Assembly: GCF_900048895.1 (NCBI RefSeq)
Contig: NZ_LT160640.1
Span: 620,001-684,000, forward strand
Source of the DNA: Neglectibacter timonensis
Lineage (GTDB): Bacteria; Bacillota; Clostridia; Oscillospirales; Acutalibacteraceae
Direction: 5' to 3'
Length of the DNA: 64,000 nt
The notes beneath the pieces were generated by a model. The model searched no databases. It was given only the letters and a program-made list of their open reading frames with translations, and was not told the origin of the DNA. Of this stretch, positions 41,698 through 61,957 are shown in pieces (position 1 is the stretch's first letter; each line of letters begins with the position of its first letter). Made by a program: the position numbers and the translations under genes.

Positions 41698-41705
41698 AAG
41701 AAAGA

Positions 41706-41862
41706 AATAGAGGCGCAGCTTTCAAAAGTAATGGGATCGAGGTTGCCAGGACTGTTGAAGTTCTATGAAAGGGTGGGCTGCCGAAGGGAATATCCGGCAA
41801 ATATTACCTGGTTGCAACGGCGAAAGCTTTGTGACTGTCATCACTTATGATGGAGTGCTATT
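41706..41862 (+). promoter_or_regulatory. Lysine riboswitch (L-box)
   Basis: P1 pairs AATAG (41706-41710) with CTATT (41858-41862). Conserved blocks are AGAGGCGC near the 5-prime end, GAAAGGGTGGGCTGCCGAAG in the middle with a CCGGCA return arm, CCTGGTTGCAACGG, and GTGACTGTCAT before TGGAGTGCTATT. These match the lysine riboswitch class by eye. It precedes asd-dapA-dapB and ends before a terminator. It should shut the operon when lysine is high. Confidence 0.85.
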
Positions 41863-41920
41863 CTTACCTACTTTTGGGCTCATCGCGTCAAAACAGCATT
41901 TCTATTATATGGGATTGGCA

Positions 41921-55028: not shown

Positions 55029-56168
55029 TCAAGCCTCGCGATAGTTTCCCAGAAAGGAAAACCGAGGTAATTCATCGTGCAGCGCACAAATCAAGTCCAG
55101 GGTGTCCGGAGTATGGATATTTCCGGAAAAATCCAGATAAAAATCGTATTCAAAATTGCTGCCGGGAATAGGACGAGATTCAATTTTAGTCAAGTTCAGA
55201 CCGTGTATTGCAAAGCGTTCCAGAACATTATAGAGTGAGCCGGTAATATGGGGCAACGAAAAACAAAGGCTGATTTTATCGGCATTCTCCGGCAAAACGG
55301 GCTTCTGAGAGATAATGACAAACCGGGTTTTGTTATTCGCGGCATTTTGAATCCCTTTCTTTAAAACAATCAAACCATATTCCTCTGCAGCCTCCTCTGA
55401 ACAGATCGCCGCCGTTCCGTCGGGGCGCTCCTGCGCAACAAACTTGGCCGCAGCTGCCGTGTTGGAATATTCTACAGTGGAAAGACCGTGCTGTTCGATG
55501 TAATCAGAACACTGGGAAAGGCCTTGTGGATGGGATATAACCGTCTTTATGTCAGCGTTTCCCCGGCATGCTGCCAGACAGTGCTCCACTTTGATCCCCA
55601 CTGCACCCACGATATAAAAACGGTATCGGAGGATCAGATCATAGACGGCGCTGACCGAGCCAGCTGCAGAATTTTCTACCGGCAAAACACCGAAGTCAGC
55701 CTCTCCAGATTTTACGGTTTCGAATACCTCTTTCCAGGTACTGCGAAAGACAAGTTCAGGCGCTTCAAAAAAGCGGAGGGCAGCGCGGTGGGAGTAAGCC
55801 CCCGGCACGCCCTGGCAAACCGCCCTCACATCGCTTTGTTTCATGCTGCGGTCCGCCGTCTGCTCCAGCCGGCGCAGTTCGCCTCCGCCTACCAGCATCT
55901 GATGTTGCCGTGCACGGCTTACTGCCATAATCGCAGAATAAAGCGCCGCGGCACTTCCGCCGTATCCACCAGCCTCTTCCCTGACTCGGTCAAGGATTTC
56001 CTGTTCCCTTTTTGCGTTGAGCACTGGTATTCCCGCTTGTTGTTTGATCTCAGCCACTTTCTCCGAGCAATTCATCCGTTCTAAAAAAAGCGGCAAAAGC
56101 TGCTTGTCTATGCGGTCTATCTCCTCCCGTACAGCCGAAAGCTGCCGCTCAAATTCCTGCTTCTCCAT
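55029..56168 (-). CDS. pheA: Bifunctional chorismate mutase / prephenate dehydratase
   Basis: Converts chorismate to phenylpyruvate for phenylalanine. An AroQ-type chorismate mutase (about residues 1-90, REEIDRIDKQLLPLFLERM) is followed by the dehydratase (about 110-290, GVPGAYSHRAALRFF and the TRFVIIS motif) and an ACT domain (about 300-375) with GSLYNVLERFAIHGLNLTKIE and ESRP, the phenylalanine feedback site. 379 aa. Last gene of the aroF operon, 17 bases after aroC. Confidence 0.94.
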   Translation of the reverse strand: MEKQEFERQLSAVREEIDRIDKQLLPLFLERMNCSEKVAEIKQQAGIPVLNAKREQEILDRVREEAGGYGGSAAALYSAIMAVSRARQHQMLVGGGELRRLEQTADRSMKQSDVRAVCQGVPGAYSHRAALRFFEAPELVFRSTWKEVFETVKSGEADFGVLPVENSAAGSVSAVYDLILRYRFYIVGAVGIKVEHCLAACRGNADIKTVISHPQGLSQCSDYIEQHGLSTVEYSNTAAAAKFVAQERPDGTAAICSEEAAEEYGLIVLKKGIQNAANNKTRFVIISQKPVLPENADKISLCFSLPHITGSLYNVLERFAIHGLNLTKIESRPIPGSNFEYDFYLDFSGNIHTPDTLDLICALHDELPRFSFLGNYREA

Positions 56169-56185
56169 CCTGCCCCACCCTTTCT

Positions 56186-57280
56186 TTACAGCTTTCCGTT
56201 TTGAGCCAGAAGTTCCAGTACCGCCACAGCAGCCGCAGACTCCAAAGCAGGCACCGCTCTCGGCACAATACAGGGATCATGACGCCCCTTAATCACCAGT
56301 TTTACATTTTCTCCCGTCTCAAGATTTACAGTATCCTGTTCCCGGCTGATGGAAGGCGTGGGTTTTACTGCAGCGCGAAAAACCAGAGGCATGCCGGTGG
56401 TAATCCCCCCCAAGATACCTCCCGCATTGTTGGTACGCGTTTTCACTGCGCCCCCATCGTCATAATAAAAAGAATCATTGTTCTCATGCCCCATTTTCCG
56501 GGCTGCCTGGAACCCTGCACCAAATTCAATTCCCTTAACAGCAGGCACCCCGAACACAATGGACGAAATCAAATTCTCCACTCCGCCGAACATGGGGTTT
56601 CCCATCCCTGTCGGCAATCCTGTCACAGCGCATTCCACCACCCCTCCCAAACTGTCCAAAGCGAGGCGCGCTTCCTCAATCTGCCTGCGCATCTCCTGCC
56701 GAATAGAGGGAAACAGGACGGGAAAATATTCCCGGCTCAAACTTTTCAGAATTTCCGGTTCGATATCCGCCATGTTGAACCGCCGGTCTTCTGCCGGTCC
56801 AACTGACAGTACATGCCCGCCGATCAGAATCCCATGTCGGGAAAGAATTTGGCGGCACACTGCTCCTGCAAAAACAAGGGGAGCTGTGAGACGTCCGGAA
56901 AAATGACCGCCACCTCGGATATCATTGTTGCCCTGATATTTTACGAAGGCGGCATAATCAGCGTGCCCCGGCCTGGGAGTAACCTTTAAATTCCCATAAT
57001 CTTTGGAGTGCTGGTCAGAATTATAAATCAGCGCACAAAGCGGGGCTCCCGTCAAAACTCCGTCGGAAGACATCCCGCAGACCACGTGTGGTTCATCCTT
57101 TTCCACACGCCGGGTAGCGCTGGGGTCTTGCCCCGGCGCCCGCCTTGCCATCTGCACCAAGATCTCGTCCCAATCCATCTTTTCACCCGCCGGCAAGCCG
57201 TCCAAAGTAACGCCAATGGCTTCCGTATGGCTTCCCCCAAAAACAGAGAGCTTGATCCTCTCACCCCACATCGATGACAT
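56186..57280 (-). CDS. aroC: Chorismate synthase
   Basis: FMN-dependent trans-elimination of phosphate from EPSP, giving chorismate. Motifs are SVFGGSHTEAIGV at the N-terminus, RPGHADYAA, GGGHFSGRLTAPLV and RTNNAGGILGGI. ATG at 57280 (MSSMWG) is preferred over TTG at 57286 because GGGAGG lies 8 bases upstream. It overlaps the end of aroA by 20 bases, so translation is coupled. 364 aa. Confidence 0.95.
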   Translation of the reverse strand: MSSMWGERIKLSVFGGSHTEAIGVTLDGLPAGEKMDWDEILVQMARRAPGQDPSATRRVEKDEPHVVCGMSSDGVLTGAPLCALIYNSDQHSKDYGNLKVTPRPGHADYAAFVKYQGNNDIRGGGHFSGRLTAPLVFAGAVCRQILSRHGILIGGHVLSVGPAEDRRFNMADIEPEILKSLSREYFPVLFPSIRQEMRRQIEEARLALDSLGGVVECAVTGLPTGMGNPMFGGVENLISSIVFGVPAVKGIEFGAGFQAARKMGHENNDSFYYDDGGAVKTRTNNAGGILGGITTGMPLVFRAAVKPTPSISREQDTVNLETGENVKLVIKGRHDPCIVPRAVPALESAAAVAVLELLAQNGKL

Positions 57281-58559
57281 CTGCAATTCCTCCCAACTTT
57301 CTTAAATCCTCAAAAAATCCCGGATAAGATTTTCTGACACTCCATGCGTCCGTCACACACACCTCTTTGCTGCTTCTGCAGGCGGCGGCTGCAAGGGCCA
57401 TGACAATCCGATGATCGTTTCTTCCCTCTGCCCGTCCTCCGGAGAAATACGGTACGCCTTTTATCATAAGACCGTCTTCCGTCTCCGTTACCCTGCCTCC
57501 CAGCGCATTCATTGCCGCCGCCATTGCGGCCAGCCGGTCACTCTCTTTCAGGCGCAGGCGTTCAGCATGGTAAATTTTGGTCTCTCCCTCCGCTGCACAG
57601 GCGCATACAGTCAGGGCAGGCACCATGTCGGGAATCTGCGCCACATCAATGGCAAACCCCTTCAGACCGCCAAACGGCTGTTTTGCATTTGGATTCCAGG
57701 CTTTAAGAACACCGTCTTCGAAAGCAAGCTGAAGTCCAAATCTCTCAAATAGGGATACACAGGCCCGATCTCCCTGGTGGGATGACTCCAGCAGTCCGGC
57801 TATTTGAATCTTGCCGCCTCCCAGTGCAGCAAGGCACAGAAAAAAGGCGGCTTGGGACCAATCTCCTTCCACCATATATCTTCGGGCACAGTACTTCTGT
57901 CCGCCCGGAATATGCCAGCCTGTAGCGGTTTCAATAACCGAAACTCCGAAATCCGCCAGTATAGAGATAGTAAGATCCACATAGCCTTTCGATTCCAGCT
58001 CTGAAGAAAGCACAATTTCACTGTCTCCTTCTAAAAGCGGAAGGGCCAACAGGAGGCCCGTGACGAATTGAGAGCTAACGTTGCCGGGAAGCGTATAGCT
58101 TCCTGCATGCAGCTTCCCTTCCATTTTCAGCGGCAGTCCGCCCTCTGTTTGAAGCAGGACGCCGTGTTCTGGAAGAAGCTTTTGATAAATCCCCAAGGGG
58201 CGTTGCGGCAACCGTCCTTTGCCGTAAAAAGTCGTTTTTACTCCCAAAGCGGCGGCAACCGGTATCATAAAGCGAAGGGTTGAGCCCGATTCCAAACAAT
58301 CGATCTCTGCTGTTTCCCCACCCAAATCCGCGGATTGAACCAACAGAGTTTTCCGCTTCTTATCATAGGAAACAATGCCTCCAAGCGCTTTCACCGCGTT
58401 TACCGTTGCGGTCAGGTCGTCGCTCAGTTCAAGGTTGCCAATTTCACAGTTGCCTTGGGACAGTGCCGCACACAACACGGCACGGTGCGCCGCGCTTTTG
58501 CTGGGTGGAATCTGCAAAATCCCCTTCAGACCGCTTTTTCGGTAGATCACGTTGGCCAT
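57261..58559 (-). CDS. aroA: 5-enolpyruvylshikimate-3-phosphate synthase
   Basis: Adds enolpyruvate from PEP to shikimate 3-phosphate. PPSKSAAHRAVLCAAL at the N-terminus holds the active-site Lys, GNVSSQFVTGLLLALP the shikimate site, and LRLKESDRLAAM the C-terminal PEP-site residues. The N-terminal PEP-site block is ESGSTLRFMIPVAA instead of the class I GNAGTA(M/T)R motif, so it looks like a class II-like variant. 432 aa, inverted two-domain fold. Its stop overlaps the aroC start. Confidence 0.94.
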   Translation of the reverse strand: MANVIYRKSGLKGILQIPPSKSAAHRAVLCAALSQGNCEIGNLELSDDLTATVNAVKALGGIVSYDKKRKTLLVQSADLGGETAEIDCLESGSTLRFMIPVAAALGVKTTFYGKGRLPQRPLGIYQKLLPEHGVLLQTEGGLPLKMEGKLHAGSYTLPGNVSSQFVTGLLLALPLLEGDSEIVLSSELESKGYVDLTISILADFGVSVIETATGWHIPGGQKYCARRYMVEGDWSQAAFFLCLAALGGGKIQIAGLLESSHQGDRACVSLFERFGLQLAFEDGVLKAWNPNAKQPFGGLKGFAIDVAQIPDMVPALTVCACAAEGETKIYHAERLRLKESDRLAAMAAAMNALGGRVTETEDGLMIKGVPYFSGGRAEGRNDHRIVMALAAAACRSSKEVCVTDAWSVRKSYPGFFEDLRKLGGIADVIDVG

Positions 58560-58673
58560 CTTTGTTGCCCTCCTTCTGCTCAGTAGCCGCTTTCCGAAAG
58601 AAATATTTCCTTTTTCTAATTCAAAACTTCACTAAAATACGAAAAGTGCCTCATGCCGTTTCAAGGATCCCGA

Positions 58674-59720
58674 TTATTCCATCACACACAGCAGCTGGCT
58701 GCGATGAATCGGATAGATGATGCTTTCCCCTATTTCCTTCAGAAGAATCAGCTGCAGCGTTTCTCCATCACTCTTTTTGTCCAAAGCTGTGGCCTCGATT
58801 ATCTCTTCTTTGGAAAAACAATCCTCCACAGGCAGGCCGTATTGTACCAGCACCTTTCGAATGCGCTCCGCTGTTCCTGCCCGGGTGATTCCAAGTTTCT
58901 CCCCGACACCTGCAGCAAGCACCATTCCGATTCCTACAGCCTCCCCGTGGGCCAATTCCTGGAAATGATGAAGCTTTTCCAACGCATGTCCGAACGTGTG
59001 CCCAAAATTCAGAATCATCCGGCGGCCCTTATCCCGGGTGTCCTCTTCAACCAGCTTTTTTTTGCTGGATACACAACGGATAATGATCTCCTCCAGGTCT
59101 ACGGGCTTAATTCCCTTTTCCAGCTGTTCAAGCAGGGCCAAGTCTGAAATGCAGCCGTATTTGATCACTTCTCCCATACCGTCATGAAAATAATGCTCCG
59201 GCAATGTATTCAGCGTCTGCGGATCGGTAACAACTGCACGAGGCTGGTGAAACGCACCTACCAAATTTTTGCCAAAGGGAAGGTCCACACCCGTTTTTCC
59301 CCCTACGCTGGCGTCCACTTGGGCCAGCAGAGAGGTCGGAATCTGAAGAAAGGAAATTCCTCTCAGAAAGGTAGCAGCGGCAAAGCCGCCCATATCTCCT
59401 GTTACACCGCCGCCTAAGGTGACGATAAAATCGCTGCGGGTAAATCCGTTTTCCGAAAGCGCCCGATAAATATCGCAGACCGTAGCGATCTGCTTCGAGC
59501 TTTCTCCCGCTGGGAACAAGAATTCGCTGACCCGAAACCCGGCAGATTCCAGCGAATCTTTGACGCGTTGCCCATAGAGGGGAAACACATTGCTTTCACT
59601 GACCAGCATCGCTTTGGCTCCCGGTCTTTCCAATTCCGCAGCCAATTCTCCCACCCGGTCAATTATTCCGTTTTCCACTGTCACTTGATAGGGCACTGCA
59701 GTAGCTATCTCAATCTTCAT
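58674..59720 (-). CDS. aroB: 3-dehydroquinate synthase
   Basis: NAD- and metal-dependent cyclisation of DAHP to 3-dehydroquinate. The motifs are LGGGVTGDMGGFAAATFLRG (about residues 101-120), PTSLLAQVDASVGGKTG, the metal ligands E in GMGEVIKYG, H in LNFGHTFGHALE and H in ELAHGEAVGIG. 348 aa. Ends about 115 bases before aroA on the same strand. Confidence 0.96.
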   Translation of the reverse strand: MKIEIATAVPYQVTVENGIIDRVGELAAELERPGAKAMLVSESNVFPLYGQRVKDSLESAGFRVSEFLFPAGESSKQIATVCDIYRALSENGFTRSDFIVTLGGGVTGDMGGFAAATFLRGISFLQIPTSLLAQVDASVGGKTGVDLPFGKNLVGAFHQPRAVVTDPQTLNTLPEHYFHDGMGEVIKYGCISDLALLEQLEKGIKPVDLEEIIIRCVSSKKKLVEEDTRDKGRRMILNFGHTFGHALEKLHHFQELAHGEAVGIGMVLAAGVGEKLGITRAGTAERIRKVLVQYGLPVEDCFSKEEIIEATALDKKSDGETLQLILLKEIGESIIYPIHRSQLLCVME

Positions 59721-59820
59721 GATGTCAAAATCTTCCTTTCTCCCTGACAGGCGCTGCCCCGTACGATTCCGCTGTAGTACCCCCTGTTATAAAACAGAGT
59801 ACCGAGCCGGCTTCCCGCCT

Positions 59821-60654
59821 TTATCCTTCTTCCTGCTTGATCCGGGCTGCAGCCTGCAGCAGGCCGCGGAGTTCCCCTTCCTCCTGCCCGGCCACAGCAT
59901 CTCTGAGCTTTTCCAGATTCCCTATCAAAGTATCAATTTCGCGTAGGAGCGCTTCCCGGTTGTCCAAAAACAGGCGGCTCCACAGCTCGTCATTGATCAG
60001 GGCAACCCGCGAAACGTCCCGGTAGCTGCCTGCTGAAAAGCCCTGGTGTTCCCGGCACCTCGGACTCATCACATAGGCGCAGGCCAGCACATGCGGCACC
60101 TGAGAGGTGAATGCTATTATTTGATCGTGCTTTTCGGGGGTAGTGAGTACCACACGTCCAAATCCCATCCCTTTTGCCAAGGAAGAGACCTCTTCTACAG
60201 CCCATTCAGGCGCCCCGCAAGGAGTAATCAAATAGGAAGCCCCCACAAAAATACTGGGGTCACTGGCAGAAAACCCACTGCGTTCCTTACCAGCCATGGG
60301 GTGCCCCCCTACAAAGATAAAGTTACCGTTTGCTTGCAAGAGATTCATCTGCCGGCAAACTTGCTTTTTGATTCCACAGGTATCGGTGACAATACAATCA
60401 GATTTCAGCCTTTTTCCATACTCCTCAATAAACCTTATAACTTCCTCAGGATAGACGCAGAGATAGATCATATCCGCCTCCTCCAGGTCCTGCAGAGTAG
60501 CCTTACGGTCGATTGCTCCGCAGGAACAGGCGTCCAGCAGGGTTTCATCGCTGATATCGACGCCTAAAACCTCGTGCTCCGTACTGAGTTTCAGGGCTTT
60601 TGCCAACGAGCCCCCGATCAATCCCAAGCCTACCAGAACGATTTTCTTTTTCAT
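59821..60654 (-). CDS. tyrA: Prephenate dehydrogenase
   Basis: NAD-dependent oxidative decarboxylation of prephenate to 4-hydroxyphenylpyruvate for tyrosine. The Rossmann motif is VGLGLIGGSLAKAL, then TDTCGIKKQV and the catalytic His in VGGHPMAGKERSGF. 277 aa with no ACT domain and no fused mutase. Start overlaps the aroF stop by 4 bases. About 100 bases separate its end from aroB. Confidence 0.94.
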   Translation of the reverse strand: MKKKIVLVGLGLIGGSLAKALKLSTEHEVLGVDISDETLLDACSCGAIDRKATLQDLEEADMIYLCVYPEEVIRFIEEYGKRLKSDCIVTDTCGIKKQVCRQMNLLQANGNFIFVGGHPMAGKERSGFSASDPSIFVGASYLITPCGAPEWAVEEVSSLAKGMGFGRVVLTTPEKHDQIIAFTSQVPHVLACAYVMSPRCREHQGFSAGSYRDVSRVALINDELWSRLFLDNREALLREIDTLIGNLEKLRDAVAGQEEGELRGLLQAAARIKQEEG

Positions 60655-61664
60655 AGCGCCCGAACCGTTTCTGAAAGCTTCTTCACCTTTGCAGCCAGAG
60701 CGTCAAACTGAACTGGTGTAATAGACTGAGCGCCGTCGCAGAGAGCATGACTTGGGTCATTATGCACCTCAATGATCAGCCCATCCGCCCCAATAGCAGC
60801 GGCTGCAATTGCCAGCGGCTCGATCAGCCAGTTGATTCCAGAGGCATGGCTCGGGTCCACAATAACCGGCAGATGGGAAAGCTTCTTGATTACAGGAACT
60901 GCCGAGATATCCAGCGTATTGCGTGTCATCGTCTCATAAGTACGGATTCCCCTTTCACACAGAATGACCTGTTCGTTTCCTTCTGCCATGATATATTCCG
61001 CACTCATCAAAAGCTCTTCTATTGTATTTGCAAGCCCTCTCTTGAGAAGAATCGGCTTGCGCGTTTTTCCCAATTGTCTGAGAAGCTCAAAATTCTGCAT
61101 ATTGCGCGCTCCCACCTGAATGATATCCACATCCTCAAACAGCGGGAGATGCTCGATGCTCATGATTTCCGTTACAATAGGCAGGCCAGTTTTCTTTTTC
61201 GCTTTAGAGAGCAATTCGAGGCCTTCCGCTTTCATTCCCTGGAAAGCATACGGCGAAGTACGCGGTTTAAAAGCGCCGCCACGCAGAAACATAGCCCCAG
61301 ACCTCTTTACACTCTCGGCAATTTCACAGATTTGGTCTTCGCTTTCCACAGAACAGGGGCCTGCAATAAGAGCCAGAGAGCCGTCTCCAATTTTCTGGCC
61401 TGTAGGCAAAGAGATGACGGTATTATCGGGATGAAATTTCCTGTTGGCCTTTTTATAAGGCTCTTGCACTCTTTTGACGCTCTCAACAAATTCCTGGGCA
61501 GCCACATATTCACTGTCAATTGCAGTGGTATCCCCGATCAGACCGAGAACTGTGCTCTGGGTGCCTACCCAGGTATTGACCTGCACATCATAGTTTGTCG
61601 TCAGTTTATTGACGAATTCATTAATTGTTTCCTGCCTTTGATTGGGCTTTAATACGATAATCAT
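60651..61664 (-). CDS. aroF: 3-deoxy-7-phosphoheptulonate (DAHP) synthase
   Basis: First committed step of aromatic synthesis: PEP plus erythrose 4-phosphate. Bacillus/Thermotoga-type (type I beta) enzyme with an N-terminal ferredoxin-like regulatory domain (about 1-70) and a TIM barrel with AGPCSVES, GGAFKPRTSPYAFQG, the KRG loop and VDPSHASG. 337 aa. The N-terminal domain is the usual site of Tyr or prephenate feedback. An AAAGGAAG ribosome site precedes ATG at 61664. First gene of the operon behind the aromatic leader. Confidence 0.95.
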   Translation of the reverse strand: MIIVLKPNQRQETINEFVNKLTTNYDVQVNTWVGTQSTVLGLIGDTTAIDSEYVAAQEFVESVKRVQEPYKKANRKFHPDNTVISLPTGQKIGDGSLALIAGPCSVESEDQICEIAESVKRSGAMFLRGGAFKPRTSPYAFQGMKAEGLELLSKAKKKTGLPIVTEIMSIEHLPLFEDVDIIQVGARNMQNFELLRQLGKTRKPILLKRGLANTIEELLMSAEYIMAEGNEQVILCERGIRTYETMTRNTLDISAVPVIKKLSHLPVIVDPSHASGINWLIEPLAIAAAAIGADGLIIEVHNDPSHALCDGAQSITPVQFDALAAKVKKLSETVRAL

Positions 61665-61696
61665 GGTTTTTTCTTCCTTTCAAAAACACTGTGAAT

Positions 61697-61726
61697 TAAA
61701 AAAGCGAAGCCTGCATCGGCTCCGCT
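61697..61726 (-). terminator. Attenuator terminator in the aroF leader
   Basis: On the minus strand AGCGGAGCC (61726-61718), a GATGCA loop and GGCTTCGCT (61711-61703) are followed by TTTTTTAA. It lies about 35 bases before the aroF start, so it would block the operon unless disrupted. Confidence 0.82.
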
Positions 61727-61763
61727 AATAACAACATTCCATAAAAATTCCAATTTGCCTGAT

Positions 61764-61889
61764 TCAGCAATCAAACAAAATCGGTATTCTGGAAAACGCA
61801 GCCGCAAATTGATTCCATGCACAAAAAGCCCGCGCAGTAAATCGCGAGCTAAAATAGCCATAAAATCGTTTTGCAGCCAATGAAACCAT
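61764..61889 (-). CDS. Aromatic-rich leader peptide of the aroF operon
   Basis: A 41-codon frame from ATG 61889 to TGA 61764-61766. AAAGGAAG lies 8 bases upstream. Ten of 41 codons are aromatic: residues 9, 10, 12, 13, 17, 22, 25, 28, 32 and 39 (Phe, Tyr, Tyr, Phe, Phe, Phe, Trp, Phe, Phe, Phe), including the run FYGYF at 9-13. It starts about 35 bases after the promoter -10 and ends before the intrinsic terminator. The pattern fits a ribosome-stalling leader that reports charged tRNA-Phe/Tyr. An overlapping open frame (61661-61861) has no ribosome site. Confidence 0.75.
   Translation of the reverse strand: MVSLAAKRFYGYFSSRFTARAFCAWNQFAAAFSRIPILFDC
61828..61849 (-). other. Leader hairpin inside the aromatic leader frame
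   Basis: GCTCGCG / CGCGGGC (one G-U pair) around an 8-base loop, followed on the minus strand by TTTTTG. It covers leader codons about 14-21, where a stalled ribosome would break it. A further 8-base complement joins 61751-61758 and 61804-61811, an alternative stem. Confidence 0.6.
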
Positions 61890-61928
61890 TAAAATACTTC
61901 CTTTACACACATCGGAATTTTCTTTACT

Positions 61929-61957
61929 ATCTTAAACCAGAGCAAATTATTTGTCAA
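61929..61957 (-). promoter_or_regulatory. Promoter of the aroF operon
   Basis: Minus-strand TTGACA (61952-61957) and TAAGAT (61929-61934), 17-base spacer, in the gap between aroK and the leader peptide. Confidence 0.88.

Follow-up and report, generated by a model that had tools for sequence, protein, structure and literature searches.

The window analysed here, the whole stretch of 64,000 nucleotides from Neglectibacter timonensis, carries a cluster of aromatic amino acid genes headed by aroF. The cluster and the leader that precedes it are composed of the following features, listed in the direction of transcription.

61929-61957, minus strand: sigma-70-like promoter TTGACA-17-TAAGAT, located upstream of the leader, past the point where the shikimate kinase-like frame ends (61984)
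61897-61904, minus strand: Shine-Dalgarno-like sequence AAAGGAAG ahead of the leader ATG (61889)
61764-61889, minus strand: leader peptide frame, 41 codons of which 10 are aromatic, read from the sequence; its core is kept in 27 genus leaders
61869-61877, minus strand: 5' strand of helix P1 (Ala-Lys codons), partner of 61818-61826, proposed by eye and supported by covariation and swap tests
61851-61865, minus strand: FYGYF, where the ribosome is proposed to stall (control codons), within the bulge that separates P1 from P2 on the 5' side
61827-61850, minus strand: helix P2, an in-frame hairpin AGCTCGCG-loop-CGCGGGCT
61818-61826, minus strand: 3' strand of P1, a U-rich stretch after P2, TTTTGTGCA, proposed by eye and supported by covariation and swap tests
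61795-61804, minus strand: proposed antiterminator strand CGGCTGCGTT, with its core GGCTGCG at 61803-61797
61703-61726, minus strand: terminator AGCGGAGCC-GATGCA-GGCTTCGCT, with a T run next to it at 61702-61697
60651-61664, minus strand: aroF (ATG at 61664), DAHP synthase of the B. subtilis type by profile match (TIGR01361), the first gene past the leader
55029-60654, minus strand: prephenate dehydrogenase-like gene, aroB, aroA, aroC and prephenate dehydratase with a chorismate mutase-like part, all by profile matches

An aroF query gives a single match in the genome; among the matches listed, the closest named aroF records belong to Neglectibacter MAGs (87%), an uncultured Clostridia bacterium (84%) and Heritagella (81%). 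Every match of the prephenate dehydrogenase-like gene falls under the curated cut-offs, as does the chorismate mutase part of the prephenate dehydratase. Upstream of aroF are found a shikimate kinase-like gene, also under cut-offs, and aroE. We infer from their position that aroF and the same-strand genes following it form one operon read as a single transcript. By virtue of its gene content, the cluster serves the common path together with the Phe and Tyr branches. A lysine riboswitch (RF00168, 98 bits) is located elsewhere in the window, at 41700-41868 on the plus strand.

An initial annotation of this DNA had proposed a ribosome-mediated attenuator upstream of the aroF operon, and several of the parts that it named are indeed present: the TTGACA/TAAGAT promoter (61957-61929), the 41-codon frame with its ribosome site, 10 Phe, Tyr or Trp codons and FYGYF, the terminator just before aroF (61726-61703, then TTTTTT) and a stem at 61828-61849, recovered as a hairpin that extends from 61850 to 61827. 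The encoded peptide, MVSLAAKRFYGYFSSRFTARAFCAWNQFAAAFSRIPILFDC, has 41 residues including seven Phe, two Tyr and one Trp, FYGYF among them. Taken by itself, the aromatic count of the window leader is only moderately unusual. A frame led by a ribosome site and holding at least 10 aromatic codons arises in 62 of 2000 dinucleotide shuffles, and the binomial probability of the count is 0.0016 against the 8.3% of aromatic codons in the 41 long frames of the window. This single-sequence excess is modest, and the case rests on comparison with relatives. The folding energy of the leader reaches -80.1 kcal/mol against -61.9 +/- 4.2 kcal/mol for shuffled sequences, none of 200 attaining it (z = -4.4), and two terminator-like sites are found where 0.5 would be expected. 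A distance of 38 bases separates the terminator from aroF.

All 28 same-genus genomes searched possess aroF and 26 of them keep a leader ahead of it, which gives, with the window, 27 leaders for comparison. The two genomes outside this set are L093, where no leader was found ahead of aroF, and L094, which is unreadable since its contig gives just 43 bases upstream. Leader frames were picked by a scan requiring a ribosome site and ranked by aromatic count, except in L103, where the frame was picked by eye. According to the initial annotation, relatives keeping the terminator and losing the aromatic codons or the ribosome site would speak against an attenuator; the outcome was the opposite, these 26 genomes retaining both and 25 of them displaying a terminator-like hairpin as well. 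When the related leaders were aligned, a check that had also been suggested, two of the Phe codons proved to be kept in frame in 27 of 27.

The peptide core of the genus leaders can be written approximately as [AT]KRF-(aromatic cluster)-SLRFTARAF. In all 27 leaders, the two Phe codons conserved in it stand in the same frame, with a spacer of 6, 9 or 12 bases in 16, 6 and 5 leaders, respectively. The P2 loop likewise varies in length by threes, and up to the far edge of this loop, counting from the first CGATTT, insertions and deletions come in multiples of three; beyond the hairpin they are not, and the frame is no longer maintained. All 27 leaders have TTT as the first conserved Phe codon and 25 of them have CGA as the Arg codon before it, while the second conserved pair is CGA TTT in every leader. 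CGA is the rarest Arg codon in the 41 long window frames (8%). The hexamer CGATTT occurs twice (61868-61839 in the window) in 25 of 27 genus leaders; the second copy, on the loop side of P2, is invariant (27 of 27). Among the genus leaders, variation is no greater at third codon positions than at first or second ones, so that a simple coding test comes out negative; RNA structure may account for these unvarying positions. In L103 the frame exits its register after the core and continues for 78 codons to near aroF, the core and the RNA elements being retained; its close relative L102 differs.

The frame overlaps the two proposed helices, whose 3' strands adjoin and whose 5' strands are parted by the bulge containing the Phe/Tyr cluster. 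Because the bulge separates them, a ribosome waiting at the cluster would cover both 5' strands. Within P2, 94.9% of the cells of the 27-leader comparison are paired and two pairs exhibit changes on both sides. In a fixed register, 73.7% of the cells of P1 are paired, its three outer pairs being broken in 10, 16 and 11 of the 27 leaders. The covariation score and the percentage paired of P1 and P2 together were matched by none of 500 shuffles and dropped when the partners were slid. Two of the five measures were unremarkable: the number of pairs with both-side changes was reached by 210 of 500 shuffles and that of further pair types by 66 of 500. P1 was proposed by eye and tested afterwards, and the shuffle test of P1 and P2 therefore leans towards P1. 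In species-swap permutations the observed energy was reached in 0 of 2000 cases for P1 and 1 of 2000 for P2. With other window limits, the figure for P1 was 2 of 5000 in the genus, and in 14 leaders from other genera, a set leaving out L029 and L076 with their CGT codons, it was 6 of 5000. These swap tests take no account of relatedness and use windows set by hand. Consensus folding by RNAalifold recovered six P2 pairs and did not recover P1. As judged from these alignments, a covarying hairpin overlaps the putative control codons, the support being strong for P2 and moderate for P1.

A downstream terminator was found in 26 of the 27 genus leaders, the window included; it is weak in L098, L102 and L103. 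No hairpin of L095 reached the terminator criteria, and this leader was omitted from the terminator tests. Past P2, 18 of 27 leaders hold the exact sequence GGCTGC at a distance of 39-46 nt from where the loop CGATTT begins, and in 15 of these it reads GGCTGCG; the other nine have variants at this place, which were listed manually from the alignment. Exact copies lie in frames 0, 1 and 2 in 12, 2 and 4 leaders, or in 19, 4 and 4 with the variants included, and this strand, present in all three reading frames, is therefore kept as RNA. The 5' arm of the terminator has its best partner at or next to the GGCTGC strand in 19 of 26 leaders (windows starting 29-47 nt past the start of the loop CGATTT) and elsewhere in seven, another hairpin having been taken as the terminator of L085 in this count. 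In the window, CGGCTGCGTT (61804-61795) can form nine pairs with AGCGGAGCCG (61726-61717), with one mismatch, at -14.2 kcal/mol. Where the arm is GCAGGGCC or GCGGGGCC (L101, L104, L105 and L109), CCGCCCTG or TGCCCTG stands just past the motif, arm and partner thus changing together, although in L104 and L109 the terminator arm has a slightly better partner farther downstream. The species-swap permutations that reach the observed energy of the antiterminator pairing number 38 of 2000, a moderate result. We regard the pairing of 61804-61795 with 61726-61717 as the likely antiterminator. The initial annotation had assigned this role to 61751-61758 with 61804-61811; the complement exists, but its strand 61804-61811 is not conserved in relatives, and this candidate was dropped in favour of the better supported one. 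Another candidate, a general protector formed by the 5' strand of P1 and the antiterminator strand, was set aside as weak (227 of 2000 permutations), though in the minimum-energy fold of the window 61870-61877 is joined to 61802-61809 and not to the 3' strand of P1.

The effect of a ribosome on the pairing between terminator arm and antiterminator was modelled by masking. A first model gave for the window 0.05 with no ribosome, 0.87 with a stalled ribosome and 0.05 with a ribosome at the stop codon, the stalled state being defined as a ribosome inside FYGYF with its A site at Gly 11. The corresponding means over 26 leaders were 0.27, 0.46 and 0.16. With other boundaries, the window values became 0.26, 0.67 and 0.26; over the 26 leaders the stalled state gave 0.60 against 0.38 at the stop, compared with 0.38 against 0.31 for shuffled sequences, and stalled exceeded stop by more than 0.1 in 14 leaders, the reverse being found in four. 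In this second model, the stalled value of 0.60 was not above the 0.58 obtained with no ribosome across the 26 leaders (six up, seven down), so that the untranslated state is not explained.

Set together, these elements argue for a leader that very probably acts as a ribosome-mediated transcription attenuator, sensing charged tRNA-Phe and tRNA-Tyr and controlling aroF-tyrA-aroB-aroA-aroC-pheA. Under a shortage of Phe or Tyr, a ribosome would stall on the FYGYF codons, covering P1 and P2 on their 5' sides; with the 3' half of the leader freed, GGCTGCG would pair with the terminator arm and the operon would be read. When both amino acids are plentiful, the ribosome would reach the stop codon, P1/P2 would re-form or the ribosome would cover GGCTGCG, and the terminator would form. 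As the window stop codon lies 37 nt past the start of the GGCTGCG core, a ribosome halted there would not cover the core.

A mixed Phe/Tyr/Trp signal had been proposed initially. Its Phe/Tyr part stands and is the most likely signal, while Trp is doubtful, because the leader has one Trp codon, no anthranilate synthase domain PF04715 was found and the cluster holds the Phe and Tyr branches. The search for PF04715 gave no match in this genome, and a control search was positive in 14 of 14 genomes. In this same genome a TrpB-like gene sits behind a T-box-like hit, and Trp may be obtained there by salvage of indole or by import.

The comparison was extended beyond the genus to the best 80 aroF matches, mostly Clostridia MAGs with a few labelled Treponema; 79 loci were scanned, L017 with only 118 bases upstream having been dropped. 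A frame counted as aromatic if it had a ribosome site, 12-70 codons, at least six and at least 20% aromatic codons, and lay at most 300 bases from aroF. Such a frame precedes aroF in 45 of the 79 loci. In a crude control, which took the regions upstream of other long frames from these loci, 6 of 202 had one, and among shuffles the share was 5.7%. Eight of the 34 loci without one have another long frame ending at most 100 bases from aroF, and in L009, L032 and L033, also counted as lacking a frame, the leader begins just past 300 bases. The overlap with the genus set is slight: L002 and L003, which belong to the 79, show the leader peptides of L090 and L105. Clostridium tyrobutyricum, C. thailandense and C. 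ganghwense are among the named strains with a leader. This distribution, together with that in the genus, supports the proposed attenuator upstream of the aroF operon. With a limit of 400 bases, a hairpin followed by a T run was found inside 21 of 46 wide-set aromatic frames, 3.4 being expected from shuffles. CGATTT is present in 14 of 16 other-genus leaders, which were picked for Arg-Phe in the peptide and include some mutually close relatives. The leaders of distant Clostridia are aromatic-rich and, by eye, share no primary sequence. Two MAG contigs labelled Treponemataceae or Treponema (L066 and L077) also carry aromatic-rich short frames and terminator-like hairpins ahead of aroF; they may be misbinned contigs or reflect a transfer of the operon.

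An RNA model built on the genus leaders finds one match in its own genome and matches 5 of 150 family genomes, including its own and another of its genus, under filters by which weak matches are lost; aroF is located beside the match in the three from other genera (L129-L131). Such a search reaches close relatives only. A plasmid search with the leader gave no match.

Several other readings of the leader can be weighed against attenuation by alternative pairing. The one that survives best, though we consider it unlikely, places terminators in tandem: P2 and the Phe-coding T run would constitute a first terminator, which a ribosome stalled just upstream would block directly. P2 plus its T run does score as terminator-like in the window and likewise in 26 of 27 genus leaders (not L097), and the excess of hairpins with T runs inside the wide-set frames points the same way. 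However, in the genus this T run is the 3' strand of P1, which passes the swap tests and favours a 1:2 protector or pause hairpin, and P2 would also be melted by a translating ribosome. Appreciably less probable is a riboswitch that binds a metabolite, or a leader that binds a protein, with P1/P2 and the two CGAUUU copies as its framework and with an incidental reading frame. The conserved structure of P1/P2 and the near invariance of the hexamers, which includes third codon positions and recurs in the picked leaders of other genera, are what such an element would display, but the genus indels, which come in multiples of three between the first CGATTT and the far edge of the P2 loop, and the aromatic richness that persists in distant Clostridia without shared primary sequence speak for a translated frame, and no Rfam family matches the leader. 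It is very improbable that the frame is a gene for a small functional peptide, membrane-active or toxin-like, standing ahead of aroF by chance: short aromatic-rich peptides can in general act on membranes, yet the position ahead of aroF, the drift outside the control codons, the GGCTGC strand kept across reading frames and the one copy detected by the RNA model in the genome all oppose it. A chance aromatic frame in a T-rich leader with an ordinary terminator and no regulation, the least credible reading of all, draws on the ease with which shuffles of the single sequence reach 10 aromatic codons and is contradicted by conservation in the 27 genus leaders and by the wide-set excess over other upstream regions.

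Attenuation through FYGYF remains our preferred reading. We tentatively consider, as an extension that is rather doubtful, that such leaders might form a Clostridia-wide class in which the leader frame shares sequence with its own first hairpin and with the T run, so that Phe control codons are encoded by this T run. One ribosome would then serve two checkpoints, and the near-invariant rare Arg codon CGA before the two key Phe codons would set its pace; a single stretch would combine the roles of regulatory codon, helix strand and potential early terminator. If attenuation is confirmed, the entry into the shikimate pathway would be set in many gut bacteria by ribosome stalling on Phe/Tyr codons, and the way these bacteria switch aromatic synthesis with diet could be predicted. 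Leader-peptide control would coexist with T-boxes, giving one genome two sensors of tRNA charging, and the choice between them is directly testable. As the peptide, and not the RNA, would carry the deep conservation, a route would also be opened to attenuators missed by RNA family libraries. Similar leaders precede aroF in many Clostridia, bacteria in which another kind of control is better known.

Aromatic operons of Gram-positive bacteria are usually ascribed to T-boxes or TRAP, and T-box riboswitches sense uncharged tRNA. The genome yields 15 hits to the T-box model RF00230 (E up to 0.001), five of them above cut-off; those below include one ahead of pheS (92.6 of 93 bits) and one ahead of the TrpB-like gene (74.5 bits). 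All 15 are located elsewhere than at aroF, whose leader occupies positions 681660-681960 of the contig, in agreement with the initial annotation, which had seen no T-box motif there. No Rfam family reaches its gathering score in the window leader, and relaxing E up to 1 gives two unrelated sRNA families far under their cut-offs. In a search of 20 other whole loci the sole match is a cobalamin riboswitch in L022, with none at the leaders. A T-box or a known RNA family as the aroF leader was ruled out by these searches.

The aroF leader resembles the enteric pheA, pheST and trp attenuators, which combine a short translated frame, rich in codons for the amino acid that the pathway makes, with a 1:2 hairpin spanning the control codons, an alternative pairing and a terminator before the first structural gene. 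In the aroF leader, the counterpart of this alternative pairing is the likely antiterminator. In trpL, the stop codon lies between strands 1 and 2. By contrast, in all 27 leaders compared the aroF leader frame extends across the whole 1:2 hairpin, strands 1 and 2 alike, and in 26 it passes the antiterminator core, L090 stopping before it.

The initial annotation had further suggested that such a leader could be undescribed. For Clostridia this holds, aromatic leader peptides ahead of aroF having no description in the literature searched, which lies largely outside subscription papers. Beyond Clostridia it does not, since the passages cited from PMC8632094 predict ahead of the Acholeplasma aroF a motif, uORFC-13-1, with a uORF containing 'at least one' Phe and an apparent terminator downstream, for which attenuation is proposed. 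That motif counts 24 examples, from Acholeplasma and environmental sequences only, and resembles the present leader, by description, in its aroF target, its uORF with one or more Phe codons and its terminator (PMC8632094, passages cited). Leader-peptide attenuators have also been reported from Firmicutes, where T-boxes are the rule: His leader peptides occur in bacilli (PMC2965389) and one is named for hisZ of Clostridium difficile (PMC4833913). In the passage cited, the authors of the former knew of no leader peptides shown outside Proteobacteria and Actinobacteria, ermC aside (PMC2965389). Unlike the aroF leader, these serve His genes, and the passages cited contain no aromatic or aro case (PMC2965389, PMC4833913). 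The leucine-rich attenuator peptide described in the cited part of a report on Staphylococcus aureus concerns branched-chain genes and Leu codons and, being an attenuator peptide of a Firmicute, provides a Gram-positive precedent (PMC5794164). The Leu/phe leader RF01743 of Lactococcus lactis, listed as an RNA motif (PMC2864571, passage cited), is named as a leader for amino acids including Phe and comes from a different Gram-positive organism, without a match here. In the excerpts cited, T-boxes precede tyrosine biosynthesis in the B. cereus group (PMC2494555) and no conserved RNA structure is found for Phe or Tyr operons in Actinobacteria (PMC1262725). Unlike T-boxes, which occur elsewhere in the same genome, the aroF leader would sense through translation. 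In its proposed mechanism it is like the enteric leaders, and in its layout it is a variant of them.
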